From Bacteroidota bacterium (lineage in GTDB: Bacteria; Bacteroidota; Bacteroidia; Bacteroidales; FEN-979), in NCBI GenBank assembly GCA_026391835.1, contig JAPLDF010000075.1:124001-188000 (forward strand): a DNA stretch of 64,000 nt, read 5' to 3'. A program made the position numbers and the translations under genes. The notes beneath the pieces are model-generated. The model did no database searches. It was given only the letters and a program-made list of their open reading frames with translations, and was not told the origin of the DNA. Within the stretch, counting starts at the first letter, position 1. Every line of letters begins with the position of its first letter. Below, piece by piece: positions 10,583 to 40,876 of this stretch.

Positions 10583-10588
10583 AACCCG

Positions 10589-10596
10589 CAAAGATA
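10589..10596 (-). promoter_or_regulatory. Bacteroidota -7 promoter box directly upstream of the TolC-like gene
   Basis: Read on the minus strand the site is TATCTTTG, a full match to TAnnTTTG. An ATTG (one mismatch to TTTG) lies 19 bases upstream at 10616-10619. Only six bases separate the box from the ATG at 10582, so a transcript from here would be leaderless or nearly so. Confidence 0.5.
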
Positions 10597-10708
10597 CTAA
10601 AATTCAAAGTTATAACAATTGAGTCTGACCCGGAATTCGGTTCCGGCAAATAGTCTCCTGATGCCTGATAATGAAGTGCTCATGGAATTTTGTTTTCCGT
10701 GGATTTGG

Positions 10709-11623: not shown

Positions 11624-11717
11624 AGGCGTTCATATGCAATATTACTGAATTACAATGCCAATGTGCTTATAAATTATCATGAACATTAAGGTCGGGTATC
11701 CAATGTTTTCAATTAGT

Positions 11718-24800: not shown

Positions 24801-27648
24801 CAATGCCGCTTACTATACAACTGTCAACATCACCTTGCCAATGGCATTGCCATATAACGCAAGTTTCATTGTTAAGGTAACGGATATTACCACAGGATGC
24901 GACAACTACGATACACTTTGTATCTGGTTTTACGAGACACCACAGCTGGGTTTTGCTTTCTACAGCGGCTGTGAGGGGGCACCTGTAACATTGGCTCCCA
25001 CATTCCCGCCTGCGAATCCGGGGTTGTATCATTATCAGTGGAGCAATGGTAAAACAACCACTTCAATAACGGTAAAAAACGCCGGGACCTATAGTTTGAC
25101 AATTACCAATAAGCAAACAGGTTGCTCTGCCACAGCCATTGCGGCCATGATCCATCCGAAGCCTGACTTGAGTCTTTTCCCGCGTGGATGCGATACAATA
25201 TGCGATACAGCTACGTTCCACCTTTATATCCCGCTGCCGCTGAATGCACTTCCGCCTTTCAATACATACGCTGCTGCCTACCCGGTCATTAAATGGTTTG
25301 ACAATGGCAATTATGCCACTCCCATCGGGATCGGACAGAACCTGTTCTTCAATACTGCTGTGCTCGGGAATCACCAAATCTCTGTTGTCGTTGGAACGGT
25401 ATGGGGATGCACGGATACTGCCGGAGTATTTTGCCTGACCGTCAGAAATTGCCCTCCATTTACCGGATTGGATTTCGGTGATGCACCTGATAGCCAGTCA
25501 GCCGGGTTTAATTATCAAACCCTTCTTCCCAACGGGGCTCGTCATAACATAGTTCCGGGTATTTACCTTGGTACCAAGGTTGATCCTGAGCCCAACGGCC
25601 AGCCCAGCATTGGTGCCGATTGCGATGACAACGATTGTGTATATGCTTCTCTTGGTGATGATGAAGACGGTGTCAACATGCCGGCAGTTATCGAGATCGG
25701 CAGTACCATTAATATCAATGTAACTGCTTCGGTAGCCGGTTTCCTGGATTTGTGGATCGATTACAATATAAATGGAAACTGGACAGGTCCTGGTGAGCAT
25801 GTCTTTACCACCCTGCCAGTAGGCCCCGCGCTAAATGCACTTTCATTTGTTGTACCAGCAACTGCTACCATCGGACAATCTTATGCACGATTCAGGTTCC
25901 GCAGTACGGCCATCTCGGGAGCAATTAGTTTCAACGGTTTGGTAAATGATGGCGAAGTAGAGGACTACCCTGTTTATATCAATGATTGTTCAGAAGGCAA
26001 TGAACTTGACTTCGGCGATGCTCCTGACAGTCCGCTTGTCGGATACAACTACCCGACACTGCTCGCCAGCAATGGTGCACGTCATACCAAGTATACCAAT
26101 ATCCGTCTTGGTGCCCTGATTGATGCTGAAACCAATGGTCAGCCCAATATCACATCATTGGGTGATGACATGGCTATCAGTGATGATGAGGATGGAGTGC
26201 AGTTTGTCGGCCAGATGTATGTCGGAAGGCCTGCCAGCATCCAGGTAACTGCTTCGGTACCCGGTTACCTCAACGCATGGATGGATTATAACCAGGATGG
26301 TGACTGGGCAGATGCCGGTGAGCCGATTTTTACCAATCAGCCCCTGGTTGCCGGTGTCAACAATCTCACTTTCATGATCCCTGCCACTGCATCGCAGGGT
26401 AAGATCTATTCAAGGTTCAGATTCAATACCGTAGGAGGTTTGAATTACTATGGCCTTGCACTGAATGGTGAAGTGGAAGATTACAGGGTGCATGCCTGCC
26501 CTTACTGGTGGCCTGTACATACCAATTATAAGCACTACATCACCATTCCCCACGACCTTCCCAATCTTTATCCCGGTGATGTTATCGGGGTGTTTTACCA
26601 TGATGCAACAGGAGCGCTGGCATGTGGAGGCATATCCGAGTTCAATGGAGCAGACGATCAGATTATGATCGCCTATGGTGATAATCCTTCTACAACAGTC
26701 AAAGACGGTTTTGCCGTTGGCGAGCCTATAATCTGGAAACTATGTTCCATTGTCAAAGGTGATGCAAATCCGGTTGATGTCATTTATGATTTCACCTATC
26801 CCAACACGAATGGCCTGTTCGCCATAAATGGCATCTCAGCACTTACAGACATTGTAGGCCTGCATGTTACTGCAACAGCTACTCCTGCCTCTATATGCAG
26901 CGGGGATGCTGTTCAGCTCCATGCCGATGCCGGTGGTGCAAGTGGTATCTCATTTACCTGGACTTCGGTACCTGCAGGATTTGTTTCAGACGTGCAGAAT
27001 CCTGTTGCTAATCCGACGGTAAACACCTCATACCACGTTGATGCATTTGACGGGGTGTTCCATGCAACTGCAAACGTTCCTGTAACTGTTACCCAGGTAA
27101 ATCCGCTGGTTGAGGTATTGCCGCTCAACAACATTGGCATTCCTGCAGGTCAGAGCAATTGCTATAATGCGACGCTCACCATCACTGCAGGGGCAAATGG
27201 ACCGTTCATAGTTGAGAGTGGAGGATCTGCCTCCCTGATTGCAGGGCAAAAGATCAGGCTGCTCCCCGGTACCAAAGGGAACAGCGGATCATACGTACAT
27301 GCATATATCACAACAACCGGGGCATACTGTTGCAACACGACCCCGCCGGCTGCCGCCAGCATGGTCACTGAATCAACAGGGGCTGAGCTCATCGGCAGCA
27401 AACCATCCTTCAAAGTTTATCCCAACCCGACCACCGGCACGTTCACACTTGAACTTAAGGGTGTTGAGGAGACTTCCAAAGTTTCCGTTGAGATATACGG
27501 GATACTTGGTGACAGAATCCTGAAAAAGGAGATGACCGGGTTTAAGCAACAGGTATTTGACCTGTCAGGCAGACTGCACGGCATTTACCTGATCCGGGTG
27601 ATGAATGATGGAGGTGAAATGGGGATGACGAAGATCATCAAACAATAA
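21835..27648 (+). CDS. Giant secreted PKD/Ig-like protein with tandem GEVED domains and a T9SS type A sorting domain
   Basis: A 1937-residue secreted protein. The signal sequence has a long polar n-region and a hydrophobic core at about residues 22-44. The body is a string of Ig-like and PKD domains (for example YLWDFGDGTTS and YQWAFGDGSTS), rich in paired cysteines. Two GEVED domains follow at about 1210-1380 and 1390-1550; each starts LDFGDAPDS and ends NGEVEDY or NDGEVEDY. The protein ends with a T9SS type A sorting domain (VYPNPTTGTFTLEL, IYLIRVMNDG). The likely role is a surface adhesin or scaffold. The AGGAGG ribosome site seven bases before the ATG supports the start. No partner gene is adjacent. 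Confidence 0.88.
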   Translation: MKKNSTNSINPVDGAGGSSGLSLYRLSLLTIIFIFSFLSIKSVAQVCCPDFKLQDAVEICASDQACGTGGAGGQGHAMVACKLSAHTYTVYPNSAPYTYTWTVTGGTPAGPTTANPLTILWGSGATGYITVVINGGGCHDSITQQICLIDGPQANFTAVPNPVCTGTPVHFNNTSSGGGSYLWDFGDGTTSTLANPPDHVFPGPGFYTVLLTAYDMGAPKAVPDQRTPCGCTDTISLVIHVLSGAGPSIETTCCYGTVCPGDTSSFCTPVVCGTYNWTVTNGVIISGAGTNCIKIKWNAVYTVPPTVSLAVPGCGAAPCPGTTTLNVPVLYPNLPISGPNPLCVGSAGTFFITSMPGTYYQWTTTAPAGSYTFNDDDRNVANVNMTFNAAGTYTIQCNYNNPLAGCSGTSSFTVNVLPVYSIYGSDAVCQYSTDLYSGSGPATWTVTGPGGVVIAPIFGNPTNITFNVPGTYTIKATPPPGFYCNLDAIKIVKVVAIPILGPIVGPNLVCPGKNLTYTITSNLAGNPFTWSVLPAGTGTVQTQFGTDRFTSIIKLNGIGPWTISVIQQVEIIPGVFCTSLPQTLLVSKYGPPAITPSGPLNVCVDATTTFTATGPLPIQWTVTPPNRGSILNGQGTNGVTIRWHGPPTIATVTASHCGGSNSVTVNILNPPVTPVITANGPLTYCLPSFPTATFAFSVPAVYTSYQWYGPGLTLIPGATNPSYTPGPAAFNPPVGGSFIYTVVVSNGICTATANVQVLIGTCGVGGGPPPNPISCAIDFTINPNPVCEGQPATFTAIQVLPNITDPGFSYQWAFGDGSTSFTSPTQHTYLAAGSYNVTLTATLGTSVATKVHQIIVRPTPNPVITASDTMYCPGGFVTLTTLPVVPAYPSYQWYKNGALITGATSSSYNVYQYGDYYVETSNTFGCTNKSNSIFVYEKALPTARITGEGLVCSSPGGTATFNLSSFYDPNYTYSWSSNPAGATFSPNNSNAAYYTTVNITLPMALPYNASFIVKVTDITTGCDNYDTLCIWFYETPQLGFAFYSGCEGAPVTLAPTFPPANPGLYHYQWSNGKTTTSITVKNAGTYSLTITNKQTGCSATAIAAMIHPKPDLSLFPRGCDTICDTATFHLYIPLPLNALPPFNTYAAAYPVIKWFDNGNYATPIGIGQNLFFNTAVLGNHQISVVVGTVWGCTDTAGVFCLTVRNCPPFTGLDFGDAPDSQSAGFNYQTLLPNGARHNIVPGIYLGTKVDPEPNGQPSIGADCDDNDCVYASLGDDEDGVNMPAVIEIGSTININVTASVAGFLDLWIDYNINGNWTGPGEHVFTTLPVGPALNALSFVVPATATIGQSYARFRFRSTAISGAISFNGLVNDGEVEDYPVYINDCSEGNELDFGDAPDSPLVGYNYPTLLASNGARHTKYTNIRLGALIDAETNGQPNITSLGDDMAISDDEDGVQFVGQMYVGRPASIQVTASVPGYLNAWMDYNQDGDWADAGEPIFTNQPLVAGVNNLTFMIPATASQGKIYSRFRFNTVGGLNYYGLALNGEVEDYRVHACPYWWPVHTNYKHYITIPHDLPNLYPGDVIGVFYHDATGALACGGISEFNGADDQIMIAYGDNPSTTVKDGFAVGEPIIWKLCSIVKGDANPVDVIYDFTYPNTNGLFAINGISALTDIVGLHVTATATPASICSGDAVQLHADAGGASGISFTWTSVPAGFVSDVQNPVANPTVNTSYHVDAFDGVFHATANVPVTVTQVNPLVEVLPLNNIGIPAGQSNCYNATLTITAGANGPFIVESGGSASLIAGQKIRLLPGTKGNSGSYVHAYITTTGAYCCNTTPPAAASMVTESTGAELIGSKPSFKVYPNPTTGTFTLELKGVEETSKVSVEIYGILGDRILKKEMTGFKQQVFDLSGRLHGIYLIRVMNDGGEMGMTKIIKQ

Positions 27649-27752: not shown

Positions 27753-28286
27753 TTATAAGATGCCGATACTTTCACGGCATTTCAGGCAAAAATGCCGGTC
27801 TTTTTGATCAATGTCTTCAACATAAGTGCTCGATCTCATGACACAGGTTGGCTGGTTGCAGTGAATTAAACCGAAAGTATGACCCAGTTCATGGATGACC
27901 TCCTTTGTGAAACGATCCAGCAGGAAACCATCATCCCCGATAATGCCATACCGGTCATTGCTTAAACGGTACAGTGAAGCGATTCCGGTGCGCCCGCCTA
28001 AGAATGCCTGCCCGAAAATGTAGGTTAAAATTGGAATAAAAAGATCTACATTGAATAAACCGAGCGTTTTACCGGCTTCGGGGATTTGTATCATGTCAAC
28101 ATACTTCAGCAGGCTGTTCCCATTGTATTGTCTCCGCCCGGCATCGTAAAATTCACTCAGGTCAATGTGACCTTCCTTAAGATTCAACCCGCAGTGAAAT
28201 TCACCTGCCACCGCATCAGCAATCTGCTCAAGAAATGTTTTCTCGAAATACCCAAAGGAAATCAAGGTGATGTTTTGCAGATTCAT
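27753..28286 (-). CDS. Archaemetzincin-type zinc metalloprotease
   Basis: A 177-residue protein with the full archaemetzincin signature: HELGHTFGLIHC (H132, E133, H136, H142), then C143, CVM at 148-150 and FCLKC (C167, C170). The first three His bind the catalytic zinc, Glu is the base, and the four Cys form a structural zinc site. The family is small (about 180 residues), and few functions are known. There is no signal peptide, so it is probably cytoplasmic. It begins seven bases after the sigma-54 regulator gene ends and is almost certainly in the same transcript as the two-component genes, an uncommon pairing. Confidence 0.9.
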   Translation of the reverse strand: MNLQNITLISFGYFEKTFLEQIADAVAGEFHCGLNLKEGHIDLSEFYDAGRRQYNGNSLLKYVDMIQIPEAGKTLGLFNVDLFIPILTYIFGQAFLGGRTGIASLYRLSNDRYGIIGDDGFLLDRFTKEVIHELGHTFGLIHCNQPTCVMRSSTYVEDIDQKDRHFCLKCRESIGIL

Positions 28287-28292
28287 TATGCA

Positions 28293-29639
28293 TTATTGTT
28301 GATCTGCAGGTTTTAAATCGTACTTCTTGATTTTATTGTACAGTGTCACCCTGTCCACTTTTAACGCTTTGGCGGTCCTGGAAATATTCCAGCTGTACTT
28401 GATGAGGATCTGGAGGATGAATGCTCTTTCAAAATCATCAAGGCTTTCGGCGGAGTTGCTTACCATTGTTTTTTCCAGCGGAAGGTCTTTCAGGCTTATT
28501 TTTTTTCCATCTCCGACTACTATGGCCCTTTCGATCATATTCTCAAGTTCCCTGATATTCCCTGGAAAATTAAACTCCTGCAAGCGCTTCAAAGCCGCCG
28601 AATCTATTCCAATCGGTGATTTGTTCATCGAAATGCAGTATTTTTTAATAAAATAGTCAACAAGCAAAGGGATGTCAGTTTTCCGTTCACGCAATGGCGG
28701 AATGTGAATGTTAACAACGTTCAGCCGGTAAAACAGGTCCTCCCTGAAAGTTCCTTTTTCAACCATGCCCTTCAGGTCTTTGTTGGTGGCGCAAATCACC
28801 CTGAAATCGGAACTGATTTCTTTATTTCCGCCAACCCGGATAAATGTTTTTGATTCAAGGACGCGCAACAGTTCAACCTGCATTTTATTCGAAATCGTGG
28901 CAATTTCATCCAGGAAGATCGAGCCGCTGTCGGCCATCTCAAAACGCCCTTTCCGGTTGTACATGGCGCCGGTAAAGGCACCTTTTTCATGTCCAAACAA
29001 CTCACTTTCAAGCAGGCTTTCGGTCAGGGCGCCACAGTGTACACTGACAAAAGGGAAAAATTTACGGGGAGAATTGGCGTGGATTGCCCGCGCGACAAGT
29101 TCTTTGCCTGTACCGCTTTCCCCTGTGATAATCACTGAGGAATTGGTTTGAGCTACGTTTTCAACCTCCTTAAGCACATTTCTCATGGCTTCACTGTTGC
29201 CGATCAGGTCTTCCACATTCTCAAGGGAGATAACCTGGGATTTTAAGGTTTCGTTCTCATCGGCCAGCGAAATCTGTTTTGTGGCATTCCGGATCAAATG
29301 TGTCAGATCGTCCGGATCGAAAGGTTTGGTAATATAATCAAACGCGCCGTCTTTCAGGGCCTTGACAGCAGTATCGACAGTCGCAAACGCAGTCATTACA
29401 ATGACAATCGAATCTTTCTTATGAGCTTTGATTCTCCTGAGCATTTCCAGCCCGTCCATTCCTGGCATTTTTATATCTGCCAGCACAATGTCAAATTGAT
29501 CGGATTCAAGAATGGTGAGGGCTTTCCTGGCGTTTTCTGCACATTCAACGCGATACCCGTCTTCAATGAACCAGCTGTACAGGGATTCCCTAACTGATTC
29601 TTCATCGTCAACGATTAATATTGAGATCTTTTTCGCCAT
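28293..29639 (-). CDS. Sigma-54-dependent response regulator (NtrC/AtoC type)
   Basis: A 448-residue, three-domain protein. The receiver (1-120) has VDDEES, the phospho-acceptor in VLADIKMPGMDG and the ITKPFDPDD lysine. The AAA+ domain (about 140-375) has the Walker A GESGTGKE, GAFTGA for contact with sigma-54, and an arginine finger region (LRERKTDIPLL). A Fis-type helix-turn-helix ends the protein (SRTAKALKVDRVTLYNKIKKY). It activates sigma-54 promoters when phosphorylated. The kinase gene lies 13 bases upstream (29653-31350). Likely targets are the neighbouring redox genes, where a sigma-54-like site occurs at 36272-36287. Confidence 0.95.
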   Translation of the reverse strand: MAKKISILIVDDEESVRESLYSWFIEDGYRVECAENARKALTILESDQFDIVLADIKMPGMDGLEMLRRIKAHKKDSIVIVMTAFATVDTAVKALKDGAFDYITKPFDPDDLTHLIRNATKQISLADENETLKSQVISLENVEDLIGNSEAMRNVLKEVENVAQTNSSVIITGESGTGKELVARAIHANSPRKFFPFVSVHCGALTESLLESELFGHEKGAFTGAMYNRKGRFEMADSGSIFLDEIATISNKMQVELLRVLESKTFIRVGGNKEISSDFRVICATNKDLKGMVEKGTFREDLFYRLNVVNIHIPPLRERKTDIPLLVDYFIKKYCISMNKSPIGIDSAALKRLQEFNFPGNIRELENMIERAIVVGDGKKISLKDLPLEKTMVSNSAESLDDFERAFILQILIKYSWNISRTAKALKVDRVTLYNKIKKYDLKPADQQ

Positions 29640-29652
29640 TATGGTTGCTCTT

Positions 29653-31350
29653 TTAATTTTTAATCAATGGTATTGTTACTGAAATGGTAGTTCCGTGTCC
29701 CAGCTCAGATTTTACCTGAATTTTACCCTTATGGTTTTGTATTATCCCGTGAACAATGGCAAGTCCCAGTCCAATGCCGCTGGCATCCTGCTTTGTTGAA
29801 AAGAAGGGCTCGAATATATGGGGAATGTCTTCCGCCGCAATCCCAAGCCCGTTATCCGAAATTTCAAAGTTGATCGTATCCTCGTCGGGATTTTTGGTTT
29901 TGATCGTAATTTCACCATTTTCCTTTGCCGCTTCTGTGGCATTTACAAGCATGGCCACACAAGCCTGTTTAATCTGGTTGGGGCTGCAACTGATCAAATC
30001 GGATTTTGCGGTAAAATCTGATAAGAAGGTGATGTTGGCGATGCGGATAGGATGCGACATCAAATCAAAGGTGTCCTGCAATATTTCATGCAGGTGCTTT
30101 TGTTCGAAATCATCATGATCCTTTCTTGAAAAATCGAGCAAACCTTTAACGATATCGCCACAACGCTTAGTTTCGTTTTCAATCATTTTCAAATGCTTCA
30201 GCATCGATTCCCGCTTGGAATCATTTAATTCAGGATTGCTTAATTGTTTGTAAAGCAGTTTTGTATAAATCAAAATGCCCGATAAGGGGTTGTTTATTTC
30301 ATGTGCTACAGAAGAAGATAATTTGCCCAGCGATGCCAGCCGCTCGACATGCATCAATTCATTCTGGGCTGCTCCCAGTTCTTCCGACTTCTTCTGGACT
30401 TTATACTCAAGCTGTTGGGACCAGTTTTCCAATTCGTCGGTTGCCGCCTGGAGGTTATCGAGCATATCATTGAATGCCCGGGACACCATCCTCATATCGT
30501 CGAGCTGGTTGGGCTTTAATTCAACCCGCGTGGTCTTATCCCCGTTTGCCACCGCTATGCTCACCTTTATCAGTGCGTTCAGCGGATCTTTGATTCTTTT
30601 CCTGGTGAAAAAAATCAAAACGGAGAAGAGAACCAATGTTGTAAAAGTAGCCAGAAGGAAAAATTCGATGGACGATTTTGCCAGGGCTGCATCGAGGTCT
30701 TCCAGGGGTATTTTGATAACAAGAGAACCCAGGAGGGTATCTGTTGCCTTATGTGCATGACAGGAACTGGTATAACACGATTTTTCATTCAGGATGGGAG
30801 TCCTGATCAACAGGTGCCTGCTGCTGTTGTCGTTCCTGATCATCTTGCAATCACTGTCGACATCAACGATTTTGTATGCTTTCTCTTTACCTGGAAACAT
30901 TGATCGGATGTTTACATGGCAGCTGATGCAATTGGGGTTACTGTGACTGTTGTTTGTGTCGGAAGCAACTGATGAGTATACCAGGTTATCTTCGCTGTCG
31001 TACATGTTCACCTCATCAATGCCCGGGAGCGTATTGATAACATCAAGGGTGTTCTGTAATGATCCTTTGTCGTTTTCAAGCATTGAATGATACAAGGCAC
31101 CTTCAACGATGGACCCGATATTGTTGCCGCTCTGGCGAATGACAGTGTTCAGGTATTGTTCATTTACTGACCTGAAGATCACGCTGAAGGATACGAACAA
31201 AAAAACAGATAAAATGGTGATAATCAACACCACCCTGCCATAAATCGACGACCGGAATTTAACATATTTTTTAAATATTGCCGTTCCTTTGTTGTTTTGA
31301 TGTTTATTCTTGAAAAGCATATCAGCAGAATGTAGTGCGTACAGGTTCAT
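29653..31350 (-). CDS. Membrane histidine kinase with a periplasmic c-type heme motif
   Basis: A 565-residue sensor kinase (an internal start at M11 is possible). Helices at about 38-60 and 229-248 enclose a periplasmic domain of about 170 residues. This domain contains a canonical heme-binding CISCH (141-145) and a second, unusual C192-x4-C197-H198 motif. HAMP (about 250-305), coiled coil, HisKA (SSVAHEINNPLSG) and HATPase (NGLGIAAEDIPHIFEPFF, GIGLGLAIV) follow. The kinase probably senses redox state or a small ligand through covalently bound heme and phosphorylates the adjacent sigma-54 regulator. Its tight coupling to the regulator and its place beside a membrane redox operon support this; the ligand is unknown. 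Confidence 0.9.
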   Translation of the reverse strand: MNLYALHSADMLFKNKHQNNKGTAIFKKYVKFRSSIYGRVVLIITILSVFLFVSFSVIFRSVNEQYLNTVIRQSGNNIGSIVEGALYHSMLENDKGSLQNTLDVINTLPGIDEVNMYDSEDNLVYSSVASDTNNSHSNPNCISCHVNIRSMFPGKEKAYKIVDVDSDCKMIRNDNSSRHLLIRTPILNEKSCYTSSCHAHKATDTLLGSLVIKIPLEDLDAALAKSSIEFFLLATFTTLVLFSVLIFFTRKRIKDPLNALIKVSIAVANGDKTTRVELKPNQLDDMRMVSRAFNDMLDNLQAATDELENWSQQLEYKVQKKSEELGAAQNELMHVERLASLGKLSSSVAHEINNPLSGILIYTKLLYKQLSNPELNDSKRESMLKHLKMIENETKRCGDIVKGLLDFSRKDHDDFEQKHLHEILQDTFDLMSHPIRIANITFLSDFTAKSDLISCSPNQIKQACVAMLVNATEAAKENGEITIKTKNPDEDTINFEISDNGLGIAAEDIPHIFEPFFSTKQDASGIGLGLAIVHGIIQNHKGKIQVKSELGHGTTISVTIPLIKN

Positions 31351-31498: not shown

Positions 31499-31531
31499 AC
31501 AAAAAAAACCGGTGAGGTGGCACCAGTTTTT
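31499..31531 (-). terminator. Rho-independent terminator between the redox operon and the two-component genes
   Basis: Read on the minus strand, a stem of AAAACTGGTG and CACCGGTTTT with a short loop ends in a run of eight T. It lies about 50 bases after the stop of the GcvH-like gene at 31582. It separates that operon from the kinase gene, which would then need its own promoter. Confidence 0.7.
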
Positions 31532-31581: not shown

Positions 31582-32319
31582 TCATACAGCAGGCGTTTGC
31601 AGCCGGTAAAGTGATAAAAATTCTTTCTGGAAATCCTTCCATATTTCTTCAGGAAGGGCAACCAGTGAATGATCACACAATTCACCTCCGTCCTGCAGGA
31701 TCACCATGGATGTTTCATGGGTGTAATTTCTCATGGTCACCGCCAGGAAATCTTTAAACCGTTCGAGTTCCTTTGCCGACCAGTTCGTTGCTTCTTCAGC
31801 AAAATAACAGGACTTTGCTTCTGCAAGCCAGTTCGATGGTTTGATCTTATAAATCCATCCCTTGCCGTAGGGATCTTCATTGAGTATCTCCGGACGCTCA
31901 TTCAACATGGAATTGGTATCCATAATTTTCCCGGAGACTGGAGAAAACAACTGCAACAATTTACCATCCTGGCAGATCTCCGTTAACAGATCGCCTTTGC
32001 TGATCATATCACCCGGTTTTTTCAGACTGCTGAATTTTACTTCACCGGTTATATGCAGTAACAGGTCATCCAATCCCACCTTGGCGGAGCCGGATTGTTC
32101 CATGAACATCCAGGTGTGATTCCTGCTGTAAAACAGTCCTTGCGGGATTCTCAGGATTTTGTCTGAGAGGACGCCCAGGGCTTTCTGAATCTGCCTGGAA
32201 ATTTTTACCTGTTTGTTCAATAATACCGCGAATGGGATCAGCATCGCCAGGAATGCAATGATGATAAGATATTCAACGCCTTTTGTGGCAAAAATATCAG
32301 AATAGCTAAATCCTTCCAT
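31582..32319 (-). CDS. Membrane-anchored GcvH-like (lipoyl-fold) protein with an extra C-terminal domain
   Basis: A 245-residue protein: one membrane helix (about 14-34), a short linker, a GcvH-type fold (about 60-165) and a C-terminal region of about 70 residues. The fold is clear from NHTWMFME, VGLDDLLLHITGEV, FSPVSGKI and EDPYGKGWIYKIK. At the lipoyl hairpin the usual E-S-V-K-A is replaced by C-Q-D-G-K, which puts the lysine one place off the normal position, so lipoylation is uncertain. The C-terminal region (LQDGGELCDHSL, PEEIWKDFQKEF) is shared with the protein at 34546. It is the last gene of the redox operon, 23 bases after the HybB-like gene. Confidence 0.8.
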   Translation of the reverse strand: MEGFSYSDIFATKGVEYLIIIAFLAMLIPFAVLLNKQVKISRQIQKALGVLSDKILRIPQGLFYSRNHTWMFMEQSGSAKVGLDDLLLHITGEVKFSSLKKPGDMISKGDLLTEICQDGKLLQLFSPVSGKIMDTNSMLNERPEILNEDPYGKGWIYKIKPSNWLAEAKSCYFAEEATNWSAKELERFKDFLAVTMRNYTHETSMVILQDGGELCDHSLVALPEEIWKDFQKEFLSLYRLQTPAV

Positions 32320-32342
32320 AATGTTGTTTTTTTTAAGTTAAT

Positions 32343-33569
32343 TTATTCAGGTTCATTTACCCAGGCGGGCGGGTCGCTCAATACAGGCATCCTGTTTATT
32401 ACCCACCTGAATATCCATATTTCAGTAAATATTACAGCCATCGTTACAACAAGTTCCATCCAGGATGGAACATACCTCACGGCCATATCCCATCTGAATC
32501 CGATAACAGTAACATTCAGCCTGTTCAGAATTACGCCAAGCATGGTGATGACCGCGGCAACTTTTATCATGGTGATGTTATTGGTCCGGTAACTTACGAA
32601 GTACAGGATCATCGGGAGCAGGACAAATCCAAGCATCTCAAGGAGGTACCACAACCCCATCGGCGTGCCCAGCAGGTTCCAGTGCTGGCCATGTATGAAG
32701 ACCAGCAACTGCAGAAAAAAGTAAGCAAACATGGCCCCGGCACAAATTTTAGATAATCCGTGGATGATGCCGTTCTGCGCCTTGTGATTTTTTTCGCTGA
32801 TCTGTTTAAAAAAAACCTTGTGGCTGATGGATCCTTCAAAAATGACCATGGAAAGCCCCGCGAAAATACTGGATACGAAAAACATGATCGGTATAAACTC
32901 TGAATACCACAGCGGATGGATCTTGTCTTTGGCCATGAGGTAGAGGGCGCCCAGCCCCGACTGGTGCAAGGTAGAGAGGGTGATCCCAAAAATAACTGCG
33001 GCAATTGTCATCCCTGAAAGGATTTTCCGGGCTTTCCGGGCTCCAAGCCATTCGGCTATTGCGGGCGAAAATTCAATCAATTCGGCTATCATGTACAACA
33101 AAAAGTGCCACGCCACCAAAAAGAGAACAGAACTTGTCCCGAAGCCATAACCGATAATCGGGTTGATCACATGCCAAGGTCGCCCGAGATCGAGCAGCAA
33201 TGCCCCGGCATAGAAAACATACGCGAGGAAGCCGTTTAACACAGTAACCCTCACAATAGAATGATACTTACGCATATTCAGGATGTACACCATAAAGGTG
33301 AGCACATAGGCGCCACCGGCAAATGCTACGCCCGTAACCACATCGAAGCCAATCCACAGCCCCCATGGTATTTCCTGCGTAAGATTGGTAATTGAACCGA
33401 TTCCTTTCCAGAAACGGATAACGATCAACCCCAATCCCAGTATCATTATTGGGATTGATATGAGGTTGAACGGGGTGAGGAATTTACCTTTTGGTTTCAG
33501 TTCGGTGACAAGAAACCTCCAGATGGATTTTCCATCCTGGCTGGTAGTGATCTGGTAGCTGTTATTCAT
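32343..33569 (-). CDS. HybB/NrfD-like integral membrane quinone-reactive subunit
   Basis: A 408-residue protein with about ten membrane helices, starting at the ATG 33569, which overlaps the stop of the upstream FeS gene (ATGAATAA). A longer frame to 33659 exists but lies inside that gene. Sequence such as STLHQSGLGALYLMAKDKIH and PLWYSEFIPIMFFVSSIFAG is typical of HybB, the membrane subunit of hydrogenase-2, within the NrfD/PsrC superfamily. It exchanges electrons with menaquinone and may translocate protons. It follows the HybA-like gene, as in hydrogenase-2 operons, but no hydrogenase large or small subunit is here. Confidence 0.88.
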   Translation of the reverse strand: MNNSYQITTSQDGKSIWRFLVTELKPKGKFLTPFNLISIPIMILGLGLIVIRFWKGIGSITNLTQEIPWGLWIGFDVVTGVAFAGGAYVLTFMVYILNMRKYHSIVRVTVLNGFLAYVFYAGALLLDLGRPWHVINPIIGYGFGTSSVLFLVAWHFLLYMIAELIEFSPAIAEWLGARKARKILSGMTIAAVIFGITLSTLHQSGLGALYLMAKDKIHPLWYSEFIPIMFFVSSIFAGLSMVIFEGSISHKVFFKQISEKNHKAQNGIIHGLSKICAGAMFAYFFLQLLVFIHGQHWNLLGTPMGLWYLLEMLGFVLLPMILYFVSYRTNNITMIKVAAVITMLGVILNRLNVTVIGFRWDMAVRYVPSWMELVVTMAVIFTEIWIFRWVINRMPVLSDPPAWVNEPE

Positions 33570-34428
33570 CTTCTTCCTCCCCGTTAAGTTGGTTGCCTTT
33601 GGTCGCCTGGTGTATTCCCAATAATAAGGCCGGTACAAGGACAAAGACCGTAGGAACACTGTAGAGGAATCCTTTTGTCAAAGCAGGATAGGACGATTGC
33701 TGCAAATTGGTGTTAAAACCCAGTTCGTTGAAGGGGACCGGCGAAAGGTAGAGCCATCCGGTTCCGCCGGCTTCATGCTCACCATAGATATGATCGATAT
33801 ATAAATCCTGTTTTTCATATATTCTCCTGCGCGCCTCCCTGATCAAATCTCTCCGCTTTCCATATAACAAAGCCTCATTCGGACAGTTGAACGCACATGC
33901 AGGACTTTCACCGGTTTTCAGCCGTTCGAAACACATGTCACATTTCTGAATTTTCGGGTTGGCACTGTGAAATTCAAATTTAGGGCTGTCAAACGGACAA
34001 GATACCATGCAATAGCGGCAACCCATGCATTTATCTCCGTCCCAGGTTACCGGTCCCATTTTTGTCTTGTGCATGGCCTGGGTCAGGCATGCGGCAACAC
34101 AGGCAGGCTCATTGCAGTGCATACACTGCCGCTTGCAGAACACTTCCCCTTTCGAAGTTTTATAGGTATTCACGACAGTGTTGCAGGATTCATCCGTTTT
34201 GCGGACCGTGGCGATCTTTTTGGTAGGCAATGGTTCCGGAAACCCATGTGCTTCAGCACAGTCGAATTCGCAGCCCCGGCAACCCTTGCAACGGGTTGCA
34301 TCGTATAGAATTCCGTAGAATTCTACAGTGTTTTTGCTGTCAGGAGAGGCAACCGAATTCTTGCCGATTGCCAGTGTCATTCCTGTTACCCCAAGCAGCT
34401 TAAAAAAGCCTCGTCGGTTTAAGCTCAT
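33562..34428 (-). CDS. HybA-like periplasmic [4Fe-4S] protein with Tat signal and C-terminal anchor
   Basis: A 288-residue protein. A twin-arginine signal (NRRGFFKLLG) is followed by four ferredoxin-type clusters: C47-KG-C50-RG-C53-EFD-C57, CKRQCMHCNEPAC, CMGCRYCMVSC and CDMC with a later CAFNC. A hydrophobic helix near residues 250-270 anchors the C-terminus. In hydrogenase-2 HybA carries electrons between the small subunit and HybB. Here it precedes the HybB-like gene, overlapping it by eight bases, so a HybAB pair is formed. The catalytic protein feeding it is not encoded nearby. The predicted site is the periplasm. Confidence 0.9.
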   Translation of the reverse strand: MSLNRRGFFKLLGVTGMTLAIGKNSVASPDSKNTVEFYGILYDATRCKGCRGCEFDCAEAHGFPEPLPTKKIATVRKTDESCNTVVNTYKTSKGEVFCKRQCMHCNEPACVAACLTQAMHKTKMGPVTWDGDKCMGCRYCMVSCPFDSPKFEFHSANPKIQKCDMCFERLKTGESPACAFNCPNEALLYGKRRDLIREARRRIYEKQDLYIDHIYGEHEAGGTGWLYLSPVPFNELGFNTNLQQSSYPALTKGFLYSVPTVFVLVPALLLGIHQATKGNQLNGEEEDE

Positions 34429-34545
34429 AATTCATCTTTTAAATGAAACAAACTTTTCGATTCAAGCTAACATGCTGCCCCTGTTCCTCGCTCCATGAAG
34501 CGGAAATAGTTCCTTCCGGTTCAGGGAAAGGTTAAGAGGGCTTAA

Positions 34546-36237
34546 TTATCTGGTGCCATCAATGAATTTTGTTTGAAAATCTTCCCATATTTCGGGGCCG
34601 AGATCGGCCAGGATGCAATCCTTCAATGATCCGCCATCCTGCAATGCAATATGAGCGTATTGAGGTGTATTGACCATTGTAACTGCAGCCAGGAAATCCT
34701 TAAGCCTCGAAAATTCATCCTTTAACCAGGTTTTGTATTTTTCGGCCATGGCCAGGAACTGTATTTCCCGCAACCAGTTGGTCGGCTCTATCATATACAC
34801 CCATCCGTCGGAATAGGGAGCTGCATTGAGCGCTGACAGGTTTGATATCAGTGATTTATTTTGGGCTGTTATTGTTCCCGAAACGGGTGCATAAATAATG
34901 AGTTGTTTCCCTTTCTGGATCAGTGTCAGTAACCGGTCACCTTTTTTAATTTTTTCACCGGCATTTTTCATTTCAATCCGTGTTAAAGGGCCGGTAACAT
35001 GTTGCAGAAATTCATCAATGCCAATTTTCACTGATCCGTCCTTTTCCATAAAAGCCCATGTATGGGTCTTGTCAAAATAGATCCCTTTGGGAATGTTCAT
35101 TGAATTTTCATCAAAAACGGCCGGATGGCTATAGGCAACATCCTTTGAAACCTTTTTGTTTTTCCTTAATTCACGTGACATCACATCCAGGATAAAACCG
35201 AGTAATCCGAAAGCAATCAAAACCAGGATCACAACCTTAAATATTGTGTAGGCGTCATTTTCAGGAGCAGTTGCCTGGATTACATTGCCATTTAATTTGT
35301 CAAGCTGTGTTTGCCTTTCGTTGTTTACGAGGTCACTGAACCCGTTAGTGCCCAGCAACTGCTGACCATCGGTAAGTACCCATTTGAGAAAAGCAACTTC
35401 ACTTTCATTTTCCGGCCTGGCGGAAGAAACCGAGTATATATTGACAGATAAGGCTTTTGGGTATTTACCAATCCAGATTCCACGGGTAAATTCCTGCAGA
35501 TTGCCATATATATCCTCCATGAAATCAATTTTCCCGTTACCGTTTTTATCAATTGGGATAAGCCTGATATCCTTAATAAGGGCCTGGTTATCATAGTCGA
35601 TGATATCAGCCAGCCTGCAAAAACCTACGGCATTCGGATCCTGTTGAATTGCGGCAATCATTTGTTCCCTGCTTCCTGACACAGTCCCATCGGAATGAAC
35701 CTGGCTGTGCAGAAAATTCCCGACGCCCGATTTTACGGAAGCATCATCTGTCATAAAGCAATGAAGTGGAATGTTTTGTCCGTTTCCCAGGAGTGTTCCC
35801 CATGACTGGTTTTCCGGGTTGTTAAAAATCCTTGTCAACCCTTCCTGGGTAATTCCTTTTCTGTTCAGTTCATCCAGAAACGGATTTTTCACATTCATTA
35901 CAGGTACAATTACATCACGTCCCAGGACCATGGTCCATTTTTGCTGGTTTTTCAGCCCGGTGAACGATTCATCAGAAACAAACCCGATCCCGGTAGTTGT
36001 GTTCAGCATCCCGGTGATGTTCTTATCAGTTGATTTTATCACATTTATTTTTATAGCAGGATTTATTTTACAGAATTCGCTTGCCCATTGCATTGTCAGA
36101 TTATACAAATCCGGTGAAGTTAAAACGTTTATGGACGCATCCTGTGAGGGGCTCTTCGCGGCTACTGCTGCCTTACTTGTTGGTATACTGCATATTAGCA
36201 GACAAATTCCGATGAATAATGAGATCCTGGTTTTCAT
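34546..36237 (-). CDS. Fusion of a PstS-like periplasmic binding domain, a membrane helix and a GcvH-like domain
   Basis: A 563-residue protein, start ATG 36237, with a signal peptide (hydrophobic at about 6-22). Residues about 35-310 resemble PstS-type substrate-binding proteins (INVLTSPDLYNLTMQWASEF, VGFCRLADI). They include an EF-hand-like calcium loop, DKNGNGKIDFME. A membrane helix (about 333-353) leads to a cytoplasmic GcvH-type fold (about 383-490: KTHTWAFMEKDGS, YAPVSGTI, DGWVYMIEPTNWL). The lipoyl hairpin has QKGK in place of E-S-V-K. The final 70 residues (ALQDGGSLKDCIL, GPEIWEDFQTKF) match the end of the protein at 31582. It heads the redox operon and is 117 bases upstream of the HybA-like gene. 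Confidence 0.82.
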   Translation of the reverse strand: MKTRISLFIGICLLICSIPTSKAAVAAKSPSQDASINVLTSPDLYNLTMQWASEFCKINPAIKINVIKSTDKNITGMLNTTTGIGFVSDESFTGLKNQQKWTMVLGRDVIVPVMNVKNPFLDELNRKGITQEGLTRIFNNPENQSWGTLLGNGQNIPLHCFMTDDASVKSGVGNFLHSQVHSDGTVSGSREQMIAAIQQDPNAVGFCRLADIIDYDNQALIKDIRLIPIDKNGNGKIDFMEDIYGNLQEFTRGIWIGKYPKALSVNIYSVSSARPENESEVAFLKWVLTDGQQLLGTNGFSDLVNNERQTQLDKLNGNVIQATAPENDAYTIFKVVILVLIAFGLLGFILDVMSRELRKNKKVSKDVAYSHPAVFDENSMNIPKGIYFDKTHTWAFMEKDGSVKIGIDEFLQHVTGPLTRIEMKNAGEKIKKGDRLLTLIQKGKQLIIYAPVSGTITAQNKSLISNLSALNAAPYSDGWVYMIEPTNWLREIQFLAMAEKYKTWLKDEFSRLKDFLAAVTMVNTPQYAHIALQDGGSLKDCILADLGPEIWEDFQTKFIDGTR

Positions 36238-36271: not shown

Positions 36272-36287
36272 TTCAATTATAATGCCA
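36272..36287 (-). promoter_or_regulatory. Candidate sigma-54 (-24/-12) promoter for the redox operon
   Basis: Read on the minus strand: TGGCAT, five bases, TTGAA. The GG at -24 and the spacing fit the sigma-54 consensus (TGGCAC, N5, TTGC), but the -12 element has GA instead of GC. It lies 35 bases before the ATG at 36237. The nearby sigma-54 activator gene makes the site plausible. Confidence 0.4.
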
Positions 36288-36432
36288 AAGAAGAATAGTG
36301 TATTTATGCCCTTGATAGTCAGATATATAACAGGATGGTATCTAATAAATAAACACAAGGTGGTGTTGAAATAATAAACACTATTGTGTGAGATGTCATA
36401 TAATAATCAGTCAAACAAGACATTACATGCTA

Positions 36433-36468
36433 TGTATATTTATTCAACACATGTTGAATAAATATACA
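36433..36468. repeat. Perfect 17-bp-arm palindrome between divergent genes
   Basis: The arms are 17 bases each, perfectly complementary, around a two-base centre (CA). The left arm begins TGTATATTTATTCAACA. It is too symmetrical and has too small a centre for a typical terminator, and it lies where an operator for the divergent genes would be expected: about 195 bases before one start and 235 before the other. Confidence 0.75.
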
Positions 36469-36703
36469 AATTAGGGGTTAAGATTGCTGCTGGTCCAATG
36501 GAAGTCCCCTTGGCAATAAAAAAAATCAGTTTTTATCAGCCACAATATTTTACTCTTTCCTGTTCAGCGGGCCATTAAAAATAATTGTTCCGATTGTGGA
36601 TAATCAATTATTATTTCGTAATTTTATATGTTTTTGTTATCGAAAATTGTAACAGGAAAACTCTTTGCAATTATCCCATTTGGGATCGATAAACCGGAGG
36701 GGA

Positions 36704-38434
36704 ATGAAAACAAAACCAACAGCTTGTAATATATTAATAGTAGACAACGAACAGGAGAACCTGATCCTGCTTTCCCGCATGCTCACACAATTGGGTCACA
36801 ACATTTTAGCGGTCAAGACCGGCAATGATGCCCTTTCCATTATCAATTCAGACTTGCCCGACCTCGTGTTGCTTGAGACCAACCTCCCTGATATAAGCGG
36901 CTATGATGTCTGCAAAACTTTGAAGACCATTCATAAATCAAGAGCCATTCCTGCCATATTCATCAGTGCGCTCAATGAAACAGCGGAAAAACTACAGGGA
37001 TTTGCTTCAGGCGCGGTTGATTATATTACCAAGCCATTTAAAACCGAAGAGGTTGTTGCCCGTGTTCAAACCCACCTGGAATTGAGCTGGCTGCGTTCCC
37101 AACTGGAAAGCCAGGCAAAAGAGTTGCAGATAAAAAACCTGCAACTTCAAATGGATTATGTTGATCTCAAGAACAGTGAAAAATCCCTGCATAGTCAGAC
37201 TGAGCGGTTAAGGAACCTCCACCGGATCGACCAGGCCATATTAATGGCGATCGAATCGCCGGAAGCGATCATTCAAACTGCCCTGAAACATATCAAGGGG
37301 TTGCTGCATTGCCAGCGCACCAGTGTCGGCTTGCTTGACCCGGACATGGCAAAAGTGCGTGTATTTGCTGCAGATGTAAGTTGTGAAACGGTTGTTCAGG
37401 TTGGAAGTGACCATTCTGCAGGAGTTTATGGAGATTTGAAAATTCTGCAGCAGGGTAATATGGAGATTGTGGAGAATGTGCTGCTGATGGCTCCACCTGC
37501 TGCAATAATTCAGTTCCTCCAGAGTGAAGGAATTCTGGCTTATATCAATGTTCCTCTCATTTCGGTAAAGGGATTGATCGGTGTGCTGAATGTTGGCTGG
37601 AATGAGCCGAAAACCATTTCTCCGGAAGAAATAGAGATTTCAGGAGAAGTTGGGGGGCAGATCACCATTGCCATCGAGCAGGCACGTTTGATGAACCAGA
37701 CTAAAAACTATGCAGCAGAACTTGAGCAAAGCGTTTCAGAACGTACTGCCCAGCTTCAGGCAGCCAACCAGGAACTTGAAGCGTTTTCGTTTTCGGTATC
37801 GCACGACCTTCATGCACCACTCAGGATTGTTCATGGATATACAAAAATTCTGCTTGAAGAGTATGCAGCTAATCTTGACAATGAGGGGAAAAAAGTATGC
37901 TCAGTCATCATGGAGCATTCGCTGAAAATGGAGCAGCTGATCGATGAACTGCTGTCATTTTCAAAGATCAGCCGTACGCACCTCAACCTGTCGCTGACCA
38001 ATATGAAACTGCTGGTGAATTCTGTTTATCTTGATTTAACAGATACCAAATCACAGGAAAGAATTACCCTTGAACTCGGCGAAATCCACGATGCACAGGC
38101 AGATGCTATCATGATTGGACAAGTTTGGGCCAACCTGCTTTCAAATGCTGTTAAATTCAGTTCCAAAAGGGAAAAAGCTGTGATATCCGTAAGCTCAATA
38201 AAGGGAAATGGCAAAAATATCTACTGTGTGAAAGATAACGGCGCTGGTTTCAATATGGAATATGCAGACAAACTGTTCGGGGTATTTCAACGCCTCCACA
38301 GCACGAATGAGTTTGAAGGTACCGGTGTCGGACTGGCAATTGTTCAGCGGATTGTTTATCGGCATGGCGGCGAGGTATGGGCTGAGGGTGAAGTTGATGG
38401 GGGAGCTGCATTTTACTTCTCCCTTCCGGCATAA
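36704..38434 (+). CDS. Hybrid protein: degenerate receiver, GAF domain and histidine kinase
   Basis: A 576-residue protein from the ATG at 36704, with GGAGG just upstream; the frame opens earlier only with TTG. The receiver (about 8-125) has VDNEQEN instead of VDDxxEN and Glu at the phospho-acceptor (LLETNLP), with the switch lysine kept (ITKPF). A coiled coil leads to a GAF domain (about 180-335: RTSVGLLDP, INVPLISVKGLIGVLNVGW). HisKA (SVSHDLHAPLRIVHGYTK) and HATPase (FQRLHSTNEFEGTGVGLAI) follow. It has no membrane helix. The catalytic end closely resembles the kinases at 55462 and 57860. It is divergent from the redox operon and may regulate or be regulated with it. Confidence 0.88.
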   Translation: MKTKPTACNILIVDNEQENLILLSRMLTQLGHNILAVKTGNDALSIINSDLPDLVLLETNLPDISGYDVCKTLKTIHKSRAIPAIFISALNETAEKLQGFASGAVDYITKPFKTEEVVARVQTHLELSWLRSQLESQAKELQIKNLQLQMDYVDLKNSEKSLHSQTERLRNLHRIDQAILMAIESPEAIIQTALKHIKGLLHCQRTSVGLLDPDMAKVRVFAADVSCETVVQVGSDHSAGVYGDLKILQQGNMEIVENVLLMAPPAAIIQFLQSEGILAYINVPLISVKGLIGVLNVGWNEPKTISPEEIEISGEVGGQITIAIEQARLMNQTKNYAAELEQSVSERTAQLQAANQELEAFSFSVSHDLHAPLRIVHGYTKILLEEYAANLDNEGKKVCSVIMEHSLKMEQLIDELLSFSKISRTHLNLSLTNMKLLVNSVYLDLTDTKSQERITLELGEIHDAQADAIMIGQVWANLLSNAVKFSSKREKAVISVSSIKGNGKNIYCVKDNGAGFNMEYADKLFGVFQRLHSTNEFEGTGVGLAIVQRIVYRHGGEVWAEGEVDGGAAFYFSLPA

Positions 38435-38485: not shown

Positions 38486-40876
38486 TTATTGAATTACAAG
38501 TTTCACAGAACCCGCAAACTTCTCACTGCGGACATGCAACACATAGATTCCGGGTGCAAGGGTTGAAATATCAATTTCATGTTCATCAGGAGGGTTGTAT
38601 GTTCCCGGGAAGCATTTGCCCAGGAACTTCCTGCCAACCATATCCATCAGGTCTATGGTCACCCGTTCGCCGGATTTCCGGATGAGCAGCCTGAATGTAC
38701 CGTGTGCGGGGTTGGGGTAAACTGCAAAAGTTGTATTCGGGGAGTGTTCATCGATGCCGACACAGTTATCGTAGGTGAAGACCAGGTTGATAGTTGCTGT
38801 ATTTTTACATCCATTCCCATTGATCACAACCACCGAGTAGGTCTGAACATCATACCCAATCCCGGTTGTTGCAGTGGTGAGGTACCGGTTGGTTGAACCG
38901 GTCGACCACTTGTAGACAGAACCCTGATTACCTGCGTCAAGTGTTACCGTGTCATAAATGCAGACCAGCGAGTCGGTCGGGCCGAGATTAATGTTTGGCA
39001 GCGGGTAAACAACCACATTCGTGCTGCCCGAAAGCTGGTTAAAGCCATCATTGACGACAAGATTATATGTTGTTGTTTCCGTGGGAATCACAGATGGATT
39101 TGCCGAGCCGGAAGTGAATCCTGCTGGAGTTGAACTCCATTGGTAGGTATAAGATCCTGAACCACCGCCCGACAAGGCAAAAAGTCGTGCTGTATCCCCC
39201 AGGCATACTGAGCCGGGTTGTGCAACAGGATTGACGGAAAGGGCCCCCCCTTCAACCGCAACAATCACCTGAGAAGGAGGACTCTGGCAGCCACTTAACA
39301 GATCAGTAACGGTGAGGATGTAAATAATGGTGTGGTCCATATTGCCGGTGGATGGCTCCGGAAGGGTTGATGTGAATCCGGGAGGGTTCGAGGTCCAGGA
39401 ATAAGCATAGGTGCCATATCCGCCACCGGCGGTTCCGTGTAAGGTGGTGCTGGTGCCATTGGCAATGGTAACATTACTCCCTGCATTGGCAACCGGTACC
39501 GGGTGAACCAGGACAATTGCAGAGTCAGATACCGAATGCGTGCATACATCAGTCACCCTCACCGTATATGTATTGTTCCCGACAGGAGGGGTAATAATGA
39601 CTGTACTATCATTCCCTGCAATATTCCACAGGTAGGTGAGGGGCATGATTCCCCCGGTGGTATTTGCTTTCAGTTCAATGCTGCCGCCAAAACACATGGC
39701 TGTGTCGGGGTTTGGTGCAATGGTCATAGGGGAGTAGTCCTCGATATAAACGGTATCCCGTTTGATGGTACCATCGCAGGAGATCTGGTTCAGCGTCAGG
39801 ATCACGGTCTTTTCACCTTCAGGAGTGGTGTCGGGTATGGGATGAATTACTACATTCACACTGTCTTCACCGGGAGGGAAGGTGACATAATCGTCGATAT
39901 GCGCATAGTCAAGGCCATTCACGGCAGTTCCGCCAATCGTATAATGGATGGAATAAGGATAACTGAGGGTGGCCATCAGCCTGAAATTAACCGCCACATC
40001 ATTGCATCCTTCAACCGCTTTGTTCCAAAGCTGGGGAATGGTGCTGTTATTGATCATATTCACGCCCGGACTGCTGAAACTGTTTTGTTCAAGAAATACG
40101 CCAGAGTCAAAGGCTTTATCAACTGCGTCTCCTATGGCCAGTTTTATATGATAGGTTGTACAGGGTTGTACCACGTACCATGCTGTATAAACATAGGTCA
40201 GCCCGTCATATTGAAAGTATTGCCCGCCTGCATTCGACCACCTGGATAATGTATTTGCGCAAATATTGTTGATGGTGACATAATTATTCAAAGAACCCGG
40301 CATCCTGGCAATATTTACGCTGTTATTGGAGAAAGTGCCAGTGATCCCCGGGCCACTCAGGAAAAAACCAAATGCATCGTTGAACTGGTTGCAATATTCA
40401 AAAAATTCCTCGGATCCAAATACATAGCGAAACCGTACCGTGTCAAATTGCGGAATAAAGTCAAATTCAATCACCGCCTTATCGGCCGTGTTGGAACCTG
40501 ATAATGTATTCAGGTCAGGATCTCCGGGGCCACCCACCTGCGAGCCTGCCCCGGGCAAACTGTTTGGACCAATGGCAATGCTTGCTTTTCCTGAAGTCAT
40601 GAGAATGCCGCCTGCCAGTCCCAGCTGGGTTTTGGCGATGCCTGCCGCAACGAACGTACCAACCTGGTCGGAGGTAATATTGTTGGAGGTTCCGTTAAAA
40701 GTGACATTGCTGACGGTAATTCCTGCACCAACCAGGTAGTTCTGGACCAGTTGCTGGGGTGTCATATTCATCGCGGAACCCTGGACAACTGTAAGCTGGG
40801 CATGTGCCTGGCCAGCCAACAACAGGTAAATCCCGCAAATGCAACATACCAGCCATATCCCTCCAATCTTACTCAT
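38486..40876 (-). CDS. Secreted choice-of-anchor L protein with Ig-like domains and T9SS sorting domain
   Basis: A 796-residue protein. A signal peptide (to about residue 26) is followed by a choice-of-anchor-L-type domain (about 30-270), recognisable from VQNYLVGAGITVSNVTF, VEFDFIPQFDTVRFRYVFGS-like text and FFEYCNQFNDAFGFFLSGPG. A Calx-beta-like segment (about 290-390, GEDSVNVVIHPIPD), Ig/PKD-like repeats (about 390-690) and a T9SS type A sorting domain (VYPNPAHGTFRL, ending FAGSVKLVIQ) complete it. It is a cell-surface or released structural protein. A -7 promoter box lies 31 bases upstream. It is convergent with the hybrid kinase. Confidence 0.88.
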   Translation of the reverse strand: MSKIGGIWLVCCICGIYLLLAGQAHAQLTVVQGSAMNMTPQQLVQNYLVGAGITVSNVTFNGTSNNITSDQVGTFVAAGIAKTQLGLAGGILMTSGKASIAIGPNSLPGAGSQVGGPGDPDLNTLSGSNTADKAVIEFDFIPQFDTVRFRYVFGSEEFFEYCNQFNDAFGFFLSGPGITGTFSNNSVNIARMPGSLNNYVTINNICANTLSRWSNAGGQYFQYDGLTYVYTAWYVVQPCTTYHIKLAIGDAVDKAFDSGVFLEQNSFSSPGVNMINNSTIPQLWNKAVEGCNDVAVNFRLMATLSYPYSIHYTIGGTAVNGLDYAHIDDYVTFPPGEDSVNVVIHPIPDTTPEGEKTVILTLNQISCDGTIKRDTVYIEDYSPMTIAPNPDTAMCFGGSIELKANTTGGIMPLTYLWNIAGNDSTVIITPPVGNNTYTVRVTDVCTHSVSDSAIVLVHPVPVANAGSNVTIANGTSTTLHGTAGGGYGTYAYSWTSNPPGFTSTLPEPSTGNMDHTIIYILTVTDLLSGCQSPPSQVIVAVEGGALSVNPVAQPGSVCLGDTARLFALSGGGSGSYTYQWSSTPAGFTSGSANPSVIPTETTTYNLVVNDGFNQLSGSTNVVVYPLPNINLGPTDSLVCIYDTVTLDAGNQGSVYKWSTGSTNRYLTTATTGIGYDVQTYSVVVINGNGCKNTATINLVFTYDNCVGIDEHSPNTTFAVYPNPAHGTFRLLIRKSGERVTIDLMDMVGRKFLGKCFPGTYNPPDEHEIDISTLAPGIYVLHVRSEKFAGSVKLVIQ

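Follow-up and report, generated by a model that had tools for sequence, protein, structure and literature searches.

A conserved Bacteroidota gene cluster combining a HybA/HybB-like pair, GcvH-fold proteins and a heme-motif two-component system

The minus strand of a 64,000-nucleotide stretch of a Bacteroidota genome (assembly GCA_026391835.1, contig JAPLDF010000075.1, positions 124,001 to 188,000; hereafter, the window) encodes a conserved cluster of seven genes. These are, in order, a PstS-like/GcvH fusion with a transmembrane (TM) helix, a HybA-like iron-sulfur protein, a HybB-like membrane subunit, a second TM-anchored GcvH-fold protein (TM-GcvH), a histidine kinase, a sigma-54 response regulator, and an archaemetzincin. 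Because the same order recurs in many genomes, it is not attributable to chance. We give about even chances to the reading that the cluster encodes a quinone-linked electron-transfer complex in which GcvH-fold proteins are the adaptors and a heme kinase exerts control. The direct observations behind this reading are the gene content, its conservation, the absent lipoyl lysine, the heme motifs, and the promoter-like elements. A first-pass annotation of the same DNA had covered the first four genes; the two-component system, the archaemetzincin, the loss of the lipoyl lysine, and the receiver-GcvH variants found in relatives go beyond it.

Composition and conservation of the cluster

The four genes of the first-pass annotation are all present as open reading frames (ORFs) with the order and strand it had given, and their family assignments are supported by Pfam and NCBIfam matches, weakly for the PstS-like part (PBP_like_2, 20.2 bits, below the cut-off of 27). 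The product of the first gene (34546..36237) has 563 residues, counted from the likely start codon, ATG at 36237 (TTG at 36276 according to the ORF tool). Its signal peptide is followed by a PstS-like periplasmic domain, a single TM helix, a cytoplasmic GcvH-fold domain, and a C-terminal "DGG" extension. The HybA/HmcB-like 4Fe-4S protein (33562..34428; Fer4_11, 64.4 bits, cut-off 26.2) begins with the Tat-like (twin-arginine translocation) signal MSLNRRGFFKLLG and ends in a hydrophobic tail. Among the HybA proteins of the named loci examined below, 68 of 75 have the twin-arginine pattern, and most of the misses resemble variants of it. The HybB/HmcC-like subunit of the NrfD family (32343..33569; NrfD, 54.4 bits, cut-off 25.8) starts with ATG at 33569, overlaps the HybA-like gene by 8 bases, and has 10 hydropathy peaks, with its N-terminus inside as judged by charge. 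The fourth gene (31582..32319) encodes the second TM-anchored GcvH-fold protein, identified by ORF, Pfam, and alignment. The GCV_H scores of the two GcvH-like proteins are 78.2 and 82.6 bits (cut-off 22.2).

Both GcvH-like proteins have lost the residue that defines a lipoyl carrier. The structure model of the first protein, the only one of the two that was modelled (mean pLDDT 79.8), has a GcvH fold with a TM-score of 0.91 to 3ab9, normalised by target length, and PstS folds were recovered in the same model. At the lipoyl position, the alignment places glycine in both window proteins and in all 35 rows of their group. Lysine is found there in 9 of 146 rows over all groups, a count restricted to rows with a residue in the anchor column and for which the hairpin alignment is less sure. 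A lipoyl carrier at the canonical site was therefore rejected. The DGG extension is common to the GcvH-like proteins, and by our reading of the charges flanking the TM helix the GcvH domains probably lie on the cytoplasmic side. An ordinary GcvH (140.6 bits) is encoded separately, on another contig of this genome. In a sister clade (L034-L053), the second GcvH protein has a cysteine-rich N-terminus and no TM helix; the L053 and L034 members have weak, below-cut-off matches to the NqrA barrel-sandwich domain, which are a lead only.

The seven-gene arrangement is widely distributed. When 296 genomes were searched with the first protein, the matches besides ordinary GcvH and PstS were TM-GcvH proteins and GcvH proteins with built-in receiver domains (receiver-GcvH). 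HybA and HybB adjoin the TM-GcvH gene in 19 of the 20 regions fetched; these regions, like the receiver-GcvH ones below, were chosen by their GcvH match, and for most of the 20 HybA adjacency was already visible before the wider fetch. The exception, L040, has two GcvH-like genes (8099-9675) with no HybA/HybB between them, perhaps because of a deletion or an assembly fault. A kinase was called in 14, a regulator in 13, and an archaemetzincin in 12 of the 20 regions, with L037 too short to judge these genes and true genes in L038 and L048 omitted by the ORF selection. One TM-GcvH match (G062:C46) and two receiver-GcvH matches (G062:C5 and G176) fell outside the fetched regions. All 16 receiver-GcvH regions contain HybA, HybB, a kinase, and at least one receiver-GcvH gene; a 13-heme gene is present in 15 of them, followed in several by large multiheme genes.

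Starting from HybB gave a similar picture. Of at least 584 loci matched when a species-genome collection was scanned with a HybB alignment, the best 80 were evaluated. GcvH-like genes lie beside HybA/HybB in all 32 loci with a HybB at least 75% identical to that of the window (titled Bacteroidota and subgroups, one Chlorobiota, and one "uncultured bacterium"), and all 21 of these with enough flank have two GcvH-like genes, kinase, regulator, and archaemetzincin. At 50% identity or more, GcvH-like or receiver-GcvH genes accompany the pair in 54 of 60 loci. Below 50%, one or other GcvH type is present in 5 of 20 loci, while 14 of the 20 are Hmc-like and include a large cytochrome. Across all identities, the 31 GcvH-type loci with enough flank include a kinase in 30, a regulator in 30, and an archaemetzincin in 27. 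GcvH-type loci also occur in metagenome-assembled genomes (MAGs) titled Deltaproteobacteria, Syntrophaceae, Acidobacteria, and Gemmatimonadales, and receiver-GcvH loci in MAGs titled Calditrichota, Woeseiaceae, Thermoanaerobaculia, and Vicinamibacteria, in both cases with the caveat that MAG contigs can be misbinned. In a quick tree of 117 HybB rows, which gave long-branch warnings, the window falls in a 37-row clade of GcvH clusters only (support 98), receiver-GcvH clusters appear in two places, and a clade whose HybA lacks the Tat signal is separate. The accessory genes are thus not confined to a single HybB lineage.

The four-gene operon encodes no catalytic subunit and, as first noted, neither the large nor the small subunit of a NiFe hydrogenase. 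Nor is a hydrogenase a regular neighbour in relatives: among 117 regions checked (80 named, 16 receiver-type, 20 others, and that of the window), a NiFe large subunit was found only in L101 and L103, and it is interleaved with HybA/HybB in L103 alone. In that Acidobacteria MAG (7898-13127), the large and small subunits flank HybA/HybB, and HybB is 60% identical to that of the window. The best NCBIfam models for the window pair are HmcB (309 bits, cut-off 420) and HmcC (408, cut-off 550), followed by HybA (219, cut-off 263) and HybB (245, cut-off 450); none is passed, whereas a control Hmc locus (L114) passes the HmcB and HmcC cut-offs with 517 and 621 bits. Since the L103 pair also falls below the HybA and HybB cut-offs, these scores do not separate the window pair from a hydrogenase pair. 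No second HybB was found in this genome. There is also no HmcA-like large multiheme protein in the window, where the kinase is the only ORF of at least 80 residues with two or more heme motifs; a search of the genome for multiheme partners of the Paired_CXXCH family gave one match.

Several relatives have further heme genes close by. In L140, L142, L148, and L150, a cluster of HybA, HybB, 13-heme, kinase, and receiver-GcvH genes is followed by genes with 19, 16, 4, and 12 to 14 heme motifs, a row that looks like an electron conduit. In L061, a gene with 4 heme motifs (1201) precedes the seven-gene cluster and one with 16 (about 9817) follows it; both are possible redox partners.

Kinase, regulator, and promoter-like elements

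The membrane histidine kinase (29653..31350; Pfam and alignment) has one CxxCH and one Cx4CH motif in its periplasmic part, which is predicted from these motifs to carry two c-type hemes. Both motifs are present in 34 of 34 kinases aligned and in 16 of 16 receiver-type kinases, and residues C141, C144, H145, C192, C197, H198, and H200 are invariant in the 34. Compared with PDB sequences, the sensor domain gave one insignificant match (E 0.73); when the whole kinase was modelled, its 50 top fold matches were all kinases, with low confidence in the sensor part. In the receiver-type kinase of L053 (12165-14033), a zinc-ribbon-like stretch lies within the ATPase region (21.8 bits, below the cut-off of 25). 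The next gene (28293..29639) encodes a response regulator of the NtrC/AtoC type with a receiver domain, an AAA+ domain containing GAFTGA, and a helix-turn-helix domain (HTH_8), assigned by ORF, Pfam, and NCBIfam. The last gene (27753..28286) encodes an archaemetzincin, with a score of 151.3 bits over the NCBIfam cut-off of 145 and the zinc motif HELGHTFGLIHC. Between the four genes and the regulatory genes lies a terminator-like hairpin of 11 pairs (31504..31531, minus strand), given which the two blocks may be separate transcripts; such sites number 10 across the whole region against 9.3 in shuffles, and a simpler scan of relatives found such a hairpin in 5 of 38 corresponding gaps.

Upstream of the operon, the minus strand has a sigma-54 promoter-like element, TGGCATTATAATTGAA (36272..36287), a proximal half-site TCAACA (36364..36369) 82 bases ahead of the -24 element, and a perfect palindrome with 17-base arms (36433..36468) that contains the distal half-sites TTCAACA and TGTTGAA. 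Across 43 upstream regions (38 GcvH-type and 5 receiver-type), enhancer-like TGTTGA/TCAACA half-sites number 127, compared with 13.4 after base shuffling. Recurrent positions lie near -182/-171 and -93/-82 relative to the -24 element, and by our count the complete TGTTGA-N5-TCAACA pair, 11 bases apart, is present in 11 of the 43. With the shuffled 95th percentile as threshold (21.5 in a first set, 22.0 in a second), a sigma-54-like element was counted in 29 of 38 GcvH-type regions of the first set; in the second set, 16 of 20 GcvH-first clusters have one, in a few cases far from the start codon, compared with 0 of 17 receiver-type Bacteroidota clusters. The element also passes in L039, L041, L050, and L051, which are GcvH-first clusters with no local regulator, and their regulator may therefore lie elsewhere.

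The genome encodes rpoN. Scans for half-sites and promoter-like sites revealed no convincing second target of the regulator in this genome, with 6 sites compared with 2 in a reversed-pattern control, and 3 promoter-like sites, this operon included, compared with 1. A wider regulon was thus not found.

Elsewhere in the window, a receiver and kinase-like protein (36665-38434) is encoded divergently from the adjoining operon. By our own reading, 40963-43947 encodes a 994-residue FAD (flavin adenine dinucleotide)-linked oxidase fused to an iron-sulfur region, and 21835-27648 and 38486-40876 encode large secreted proteins whose C-terminus holds a sorting region of the type usual in Bacteroidota.

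A proposed electron-transfer complex and its alternatives

In the reading that we favour, the cluster would encode an electron-transfer complex of the Hmc/Hyb type, linked to menaquinone. HybB would handle quinone in the membrane, a chemistry suggested by its homology to HybB/HmcC, and HybA would move electrons on the periplasmic side. Both GcvH-fold proteins, tied to the membrane on its cytoplasmic side, would serve as adaptor or regulatory subunits with no catalytic role. The kinase, through its two heme motifs, would read the periplasmic redox state and control the complex, here by way of the sigma-54 regulator acting on the operon promoter and in the sister architecture by way of the receiver domains built into the GcvH proteins. 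Heme binding, the physical complex, the direction of signalling, binding of the regulator to the half-sites, and the joint function of the cluster are what we infer from these data. A heme-motif kinase is encoded with GcvH-HybAB in both architectures; the adaptor and two-component account is the simplest.

Several points weigh against it. The complex and its activity are deduced from genes and sequence, and the account assigns no role to the archaemetzincin. No cytochrome or enzyme that could meet HybA is encoded in the window operon. The HybA proteins of the sister clade (L034-L053) lack a Tat signal in 14 of 14 cases, while HybB topology is unchanged. Six of the 60 close HybB loci (at least 50% identity) show neither GcvH type. 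These include the NiFe hydrogenase operon of L103, L098 with a 16-heme gene, and L108 with full flanks; in the others (L090, L104, and L111), the region is truncated on the downstream side. Additionally, L039, L041, L050, and L051 have GcvH and HybAB with no kinase or regulator nearby, the complete half-site pair is absent upstream of the window operon, and the promoter pattern is not clean, in that two of the five receiver-type loci of the named set (L101 and L105) also pass the sigma-54 score, at -172 and -422.

The alternative that survives best, which we nonetheless consider rather unlikely, is that HybA/HybB are the sensor input. Electrons from quinol would pass through HybB and HybA to the kinase hemes, and the kinase would report the menaquinone pool. 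This would explain the missing catalytic subunit. The lack of an enzyme or cytochrome in the window operon, the export signal of HybA, the position of the heme motifs in the periplasmic part of the kinase, and the failure to find a convincing second regulator target all fit this view, but the GcvH-HybAB clusters with no kinase nearby, the sister-clade HybA with no export signal, and the 13-heme protein as a possible partner in 15 of 16 receiver-GcvH regions do not.

Quite improbable is the view of the first-pass annotation, in which the PstS-like domain would recognise a ligand in the periplasm and, by way of the TM helix and GcvH domain, act as a gate on the redox pair. The layout is receptor-like, the fusion is present in 18 of the 21 close clusters with enough flank, and a ligand other than phosphate is possible. 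However, the motifs SGAFALYP, AGGAGKG, and DAxGAA, which we take to be the phosphate-binding motifs around the ligand site, are present in 9 of 9 stand-alone PstS proteins aligned and in 0 of 8 fusions. Phosphate sensing is therefore unlikely, and a phosphate sensor was rejected. The PstS-like domain is moreover the less conserved part of the fusion (mean column agreement 0.47 compared with 0.66), is missing from 3 of the 21 clusters, and was not called as a fusion in any locus titled with another phylum. It otherwise resembles the PstS of the same phylum, including the D-x-N-x-N-G loop, which is found in 9 of 9 stand-alone PstS proteins and, with a looser pattern, in 27 of 31 fusions, and is thus no special feature of the fusions.

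It is very unlikely that the GcvH-fold proteins are still swinging-arm carriers, modified at K444 of the 563-residue protein, one residue past the lipoyl position. This lysine is invariant in 31 fusions aligned and is K in 34 and R in 1 of the 35 rows of the wider group, but the residue varies in other groups (R, L, A, Q, G, and others), and the lipoyl position itself is glycine.

Least probable is that an ordinary orphan HybA/HybB pair serves a hydrogenase or other enzyme in trans, with the GcvH-fold proteins having no special weight: a close HybB relative does sit inside the L103 hydrogenase operon, but linkage to GcvH-fold genes is near universal among close relatives, and the single NiFe hydrogenase of this genome, on another contig, is by our reading accompanied by a small subunit, maturation genes, and a cytochrome-b-like gene, so that it is not missing HybA/HybB and was rejected as a partner on account of this putative membrane gene.

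Returning to the adaptor and two-component reading, the clusters may represent a new class of signal-gated respiratory complex, in which a heme-sensing two-component system would directly control a quinone-linked membrane complex by way of GcvH-fold subunits that are not lipoylated. One branch would use receiver-GcvH proteins for this and the other sigma-54 control, and a metabolic carrier fold would have turned into a signalling adaptor for electron-transfer complexes in several phyla. We hold this broader proposal only tentatively and think it doubtful. The presence of receiver domains on proteins encoded alongside a quinone module hints that phosphorylation may target electron transfer directly, as well as its expression, and the same architecture suggests reuse of a metabolic carrier fold as an adaptor. 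With a defined operon, promoter-like sites, and a kinase, the clusters are common and regular enough for such ideas to be tested.

Comparison with known systems

The GcvH-fold domains share the fold of the glycine cleavage H protein (TM-score 0.91 to that of E. coli), but unlike it the window proteins lack the lipoyl lysine, have a TM anchor and a DGG extension, and score 65 and 77 bits compared with an equivalog cut-off of 115.85. Class 40H chemotaxis receptor sensor domains (PF21563) bind heme c, and the L053 receiver-type kinase matches this family weakly (17.1 bits, E 0.0068). That match is below the cut-off of 27, whereas the window sensor has no match and the window kinase has two motifs, one of them Cx4CH.

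Hydrogenase-2 has the same quinone module, with HybA as an exported, tail-anchored iron-sulfur protein alongside HybB. It differs in that the window cluster has no hydrogenase subunits and its pair, like that of L103, falls below the HybA and HybB cut-offs. Closer in score is the Hmc complex of sulfate reducers (HmcABCDEF), as HmcB and HmcC are the best NCBIfam models for the window pair. The regulators rrf1/rrf2 accompany hmc, according to PMC10924467, as regulatory genes do here. Unlike Hmc, the window has no HmcA, D, E, or F, its scores are below the HmcB/HmcC cut-offs, and GcvH-fold genes are added. The octaheme-cytochrome and FeFe-hydrogenase modules described in the same paper also combine a tail-anchored iron-sulfur protein with a HybB-like subunit and have no NiFe hydrogenase, but their partner is a cytochrome or FeFe hydrogenase, whereas the window has GcvH-fold proteins and a kinase.

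The literature searched, which was mostly without subscription papers and bioRxiv preprints, contained no description of a system of this composition, in keeping with the first-pass annotation, no partnership of HybA/HybB with GcvH-fold proteins and two-component systems, and no paper naming both GcvH and NrfD. The absence of a NiFe hydrogenase beside HybA/HybB, which the first-pass annotation had singled out, is real here but has precedents, since such pairs are already described for Hmc, the octaheme module, and the FeFe-hydrogenase module (PMC10924467).

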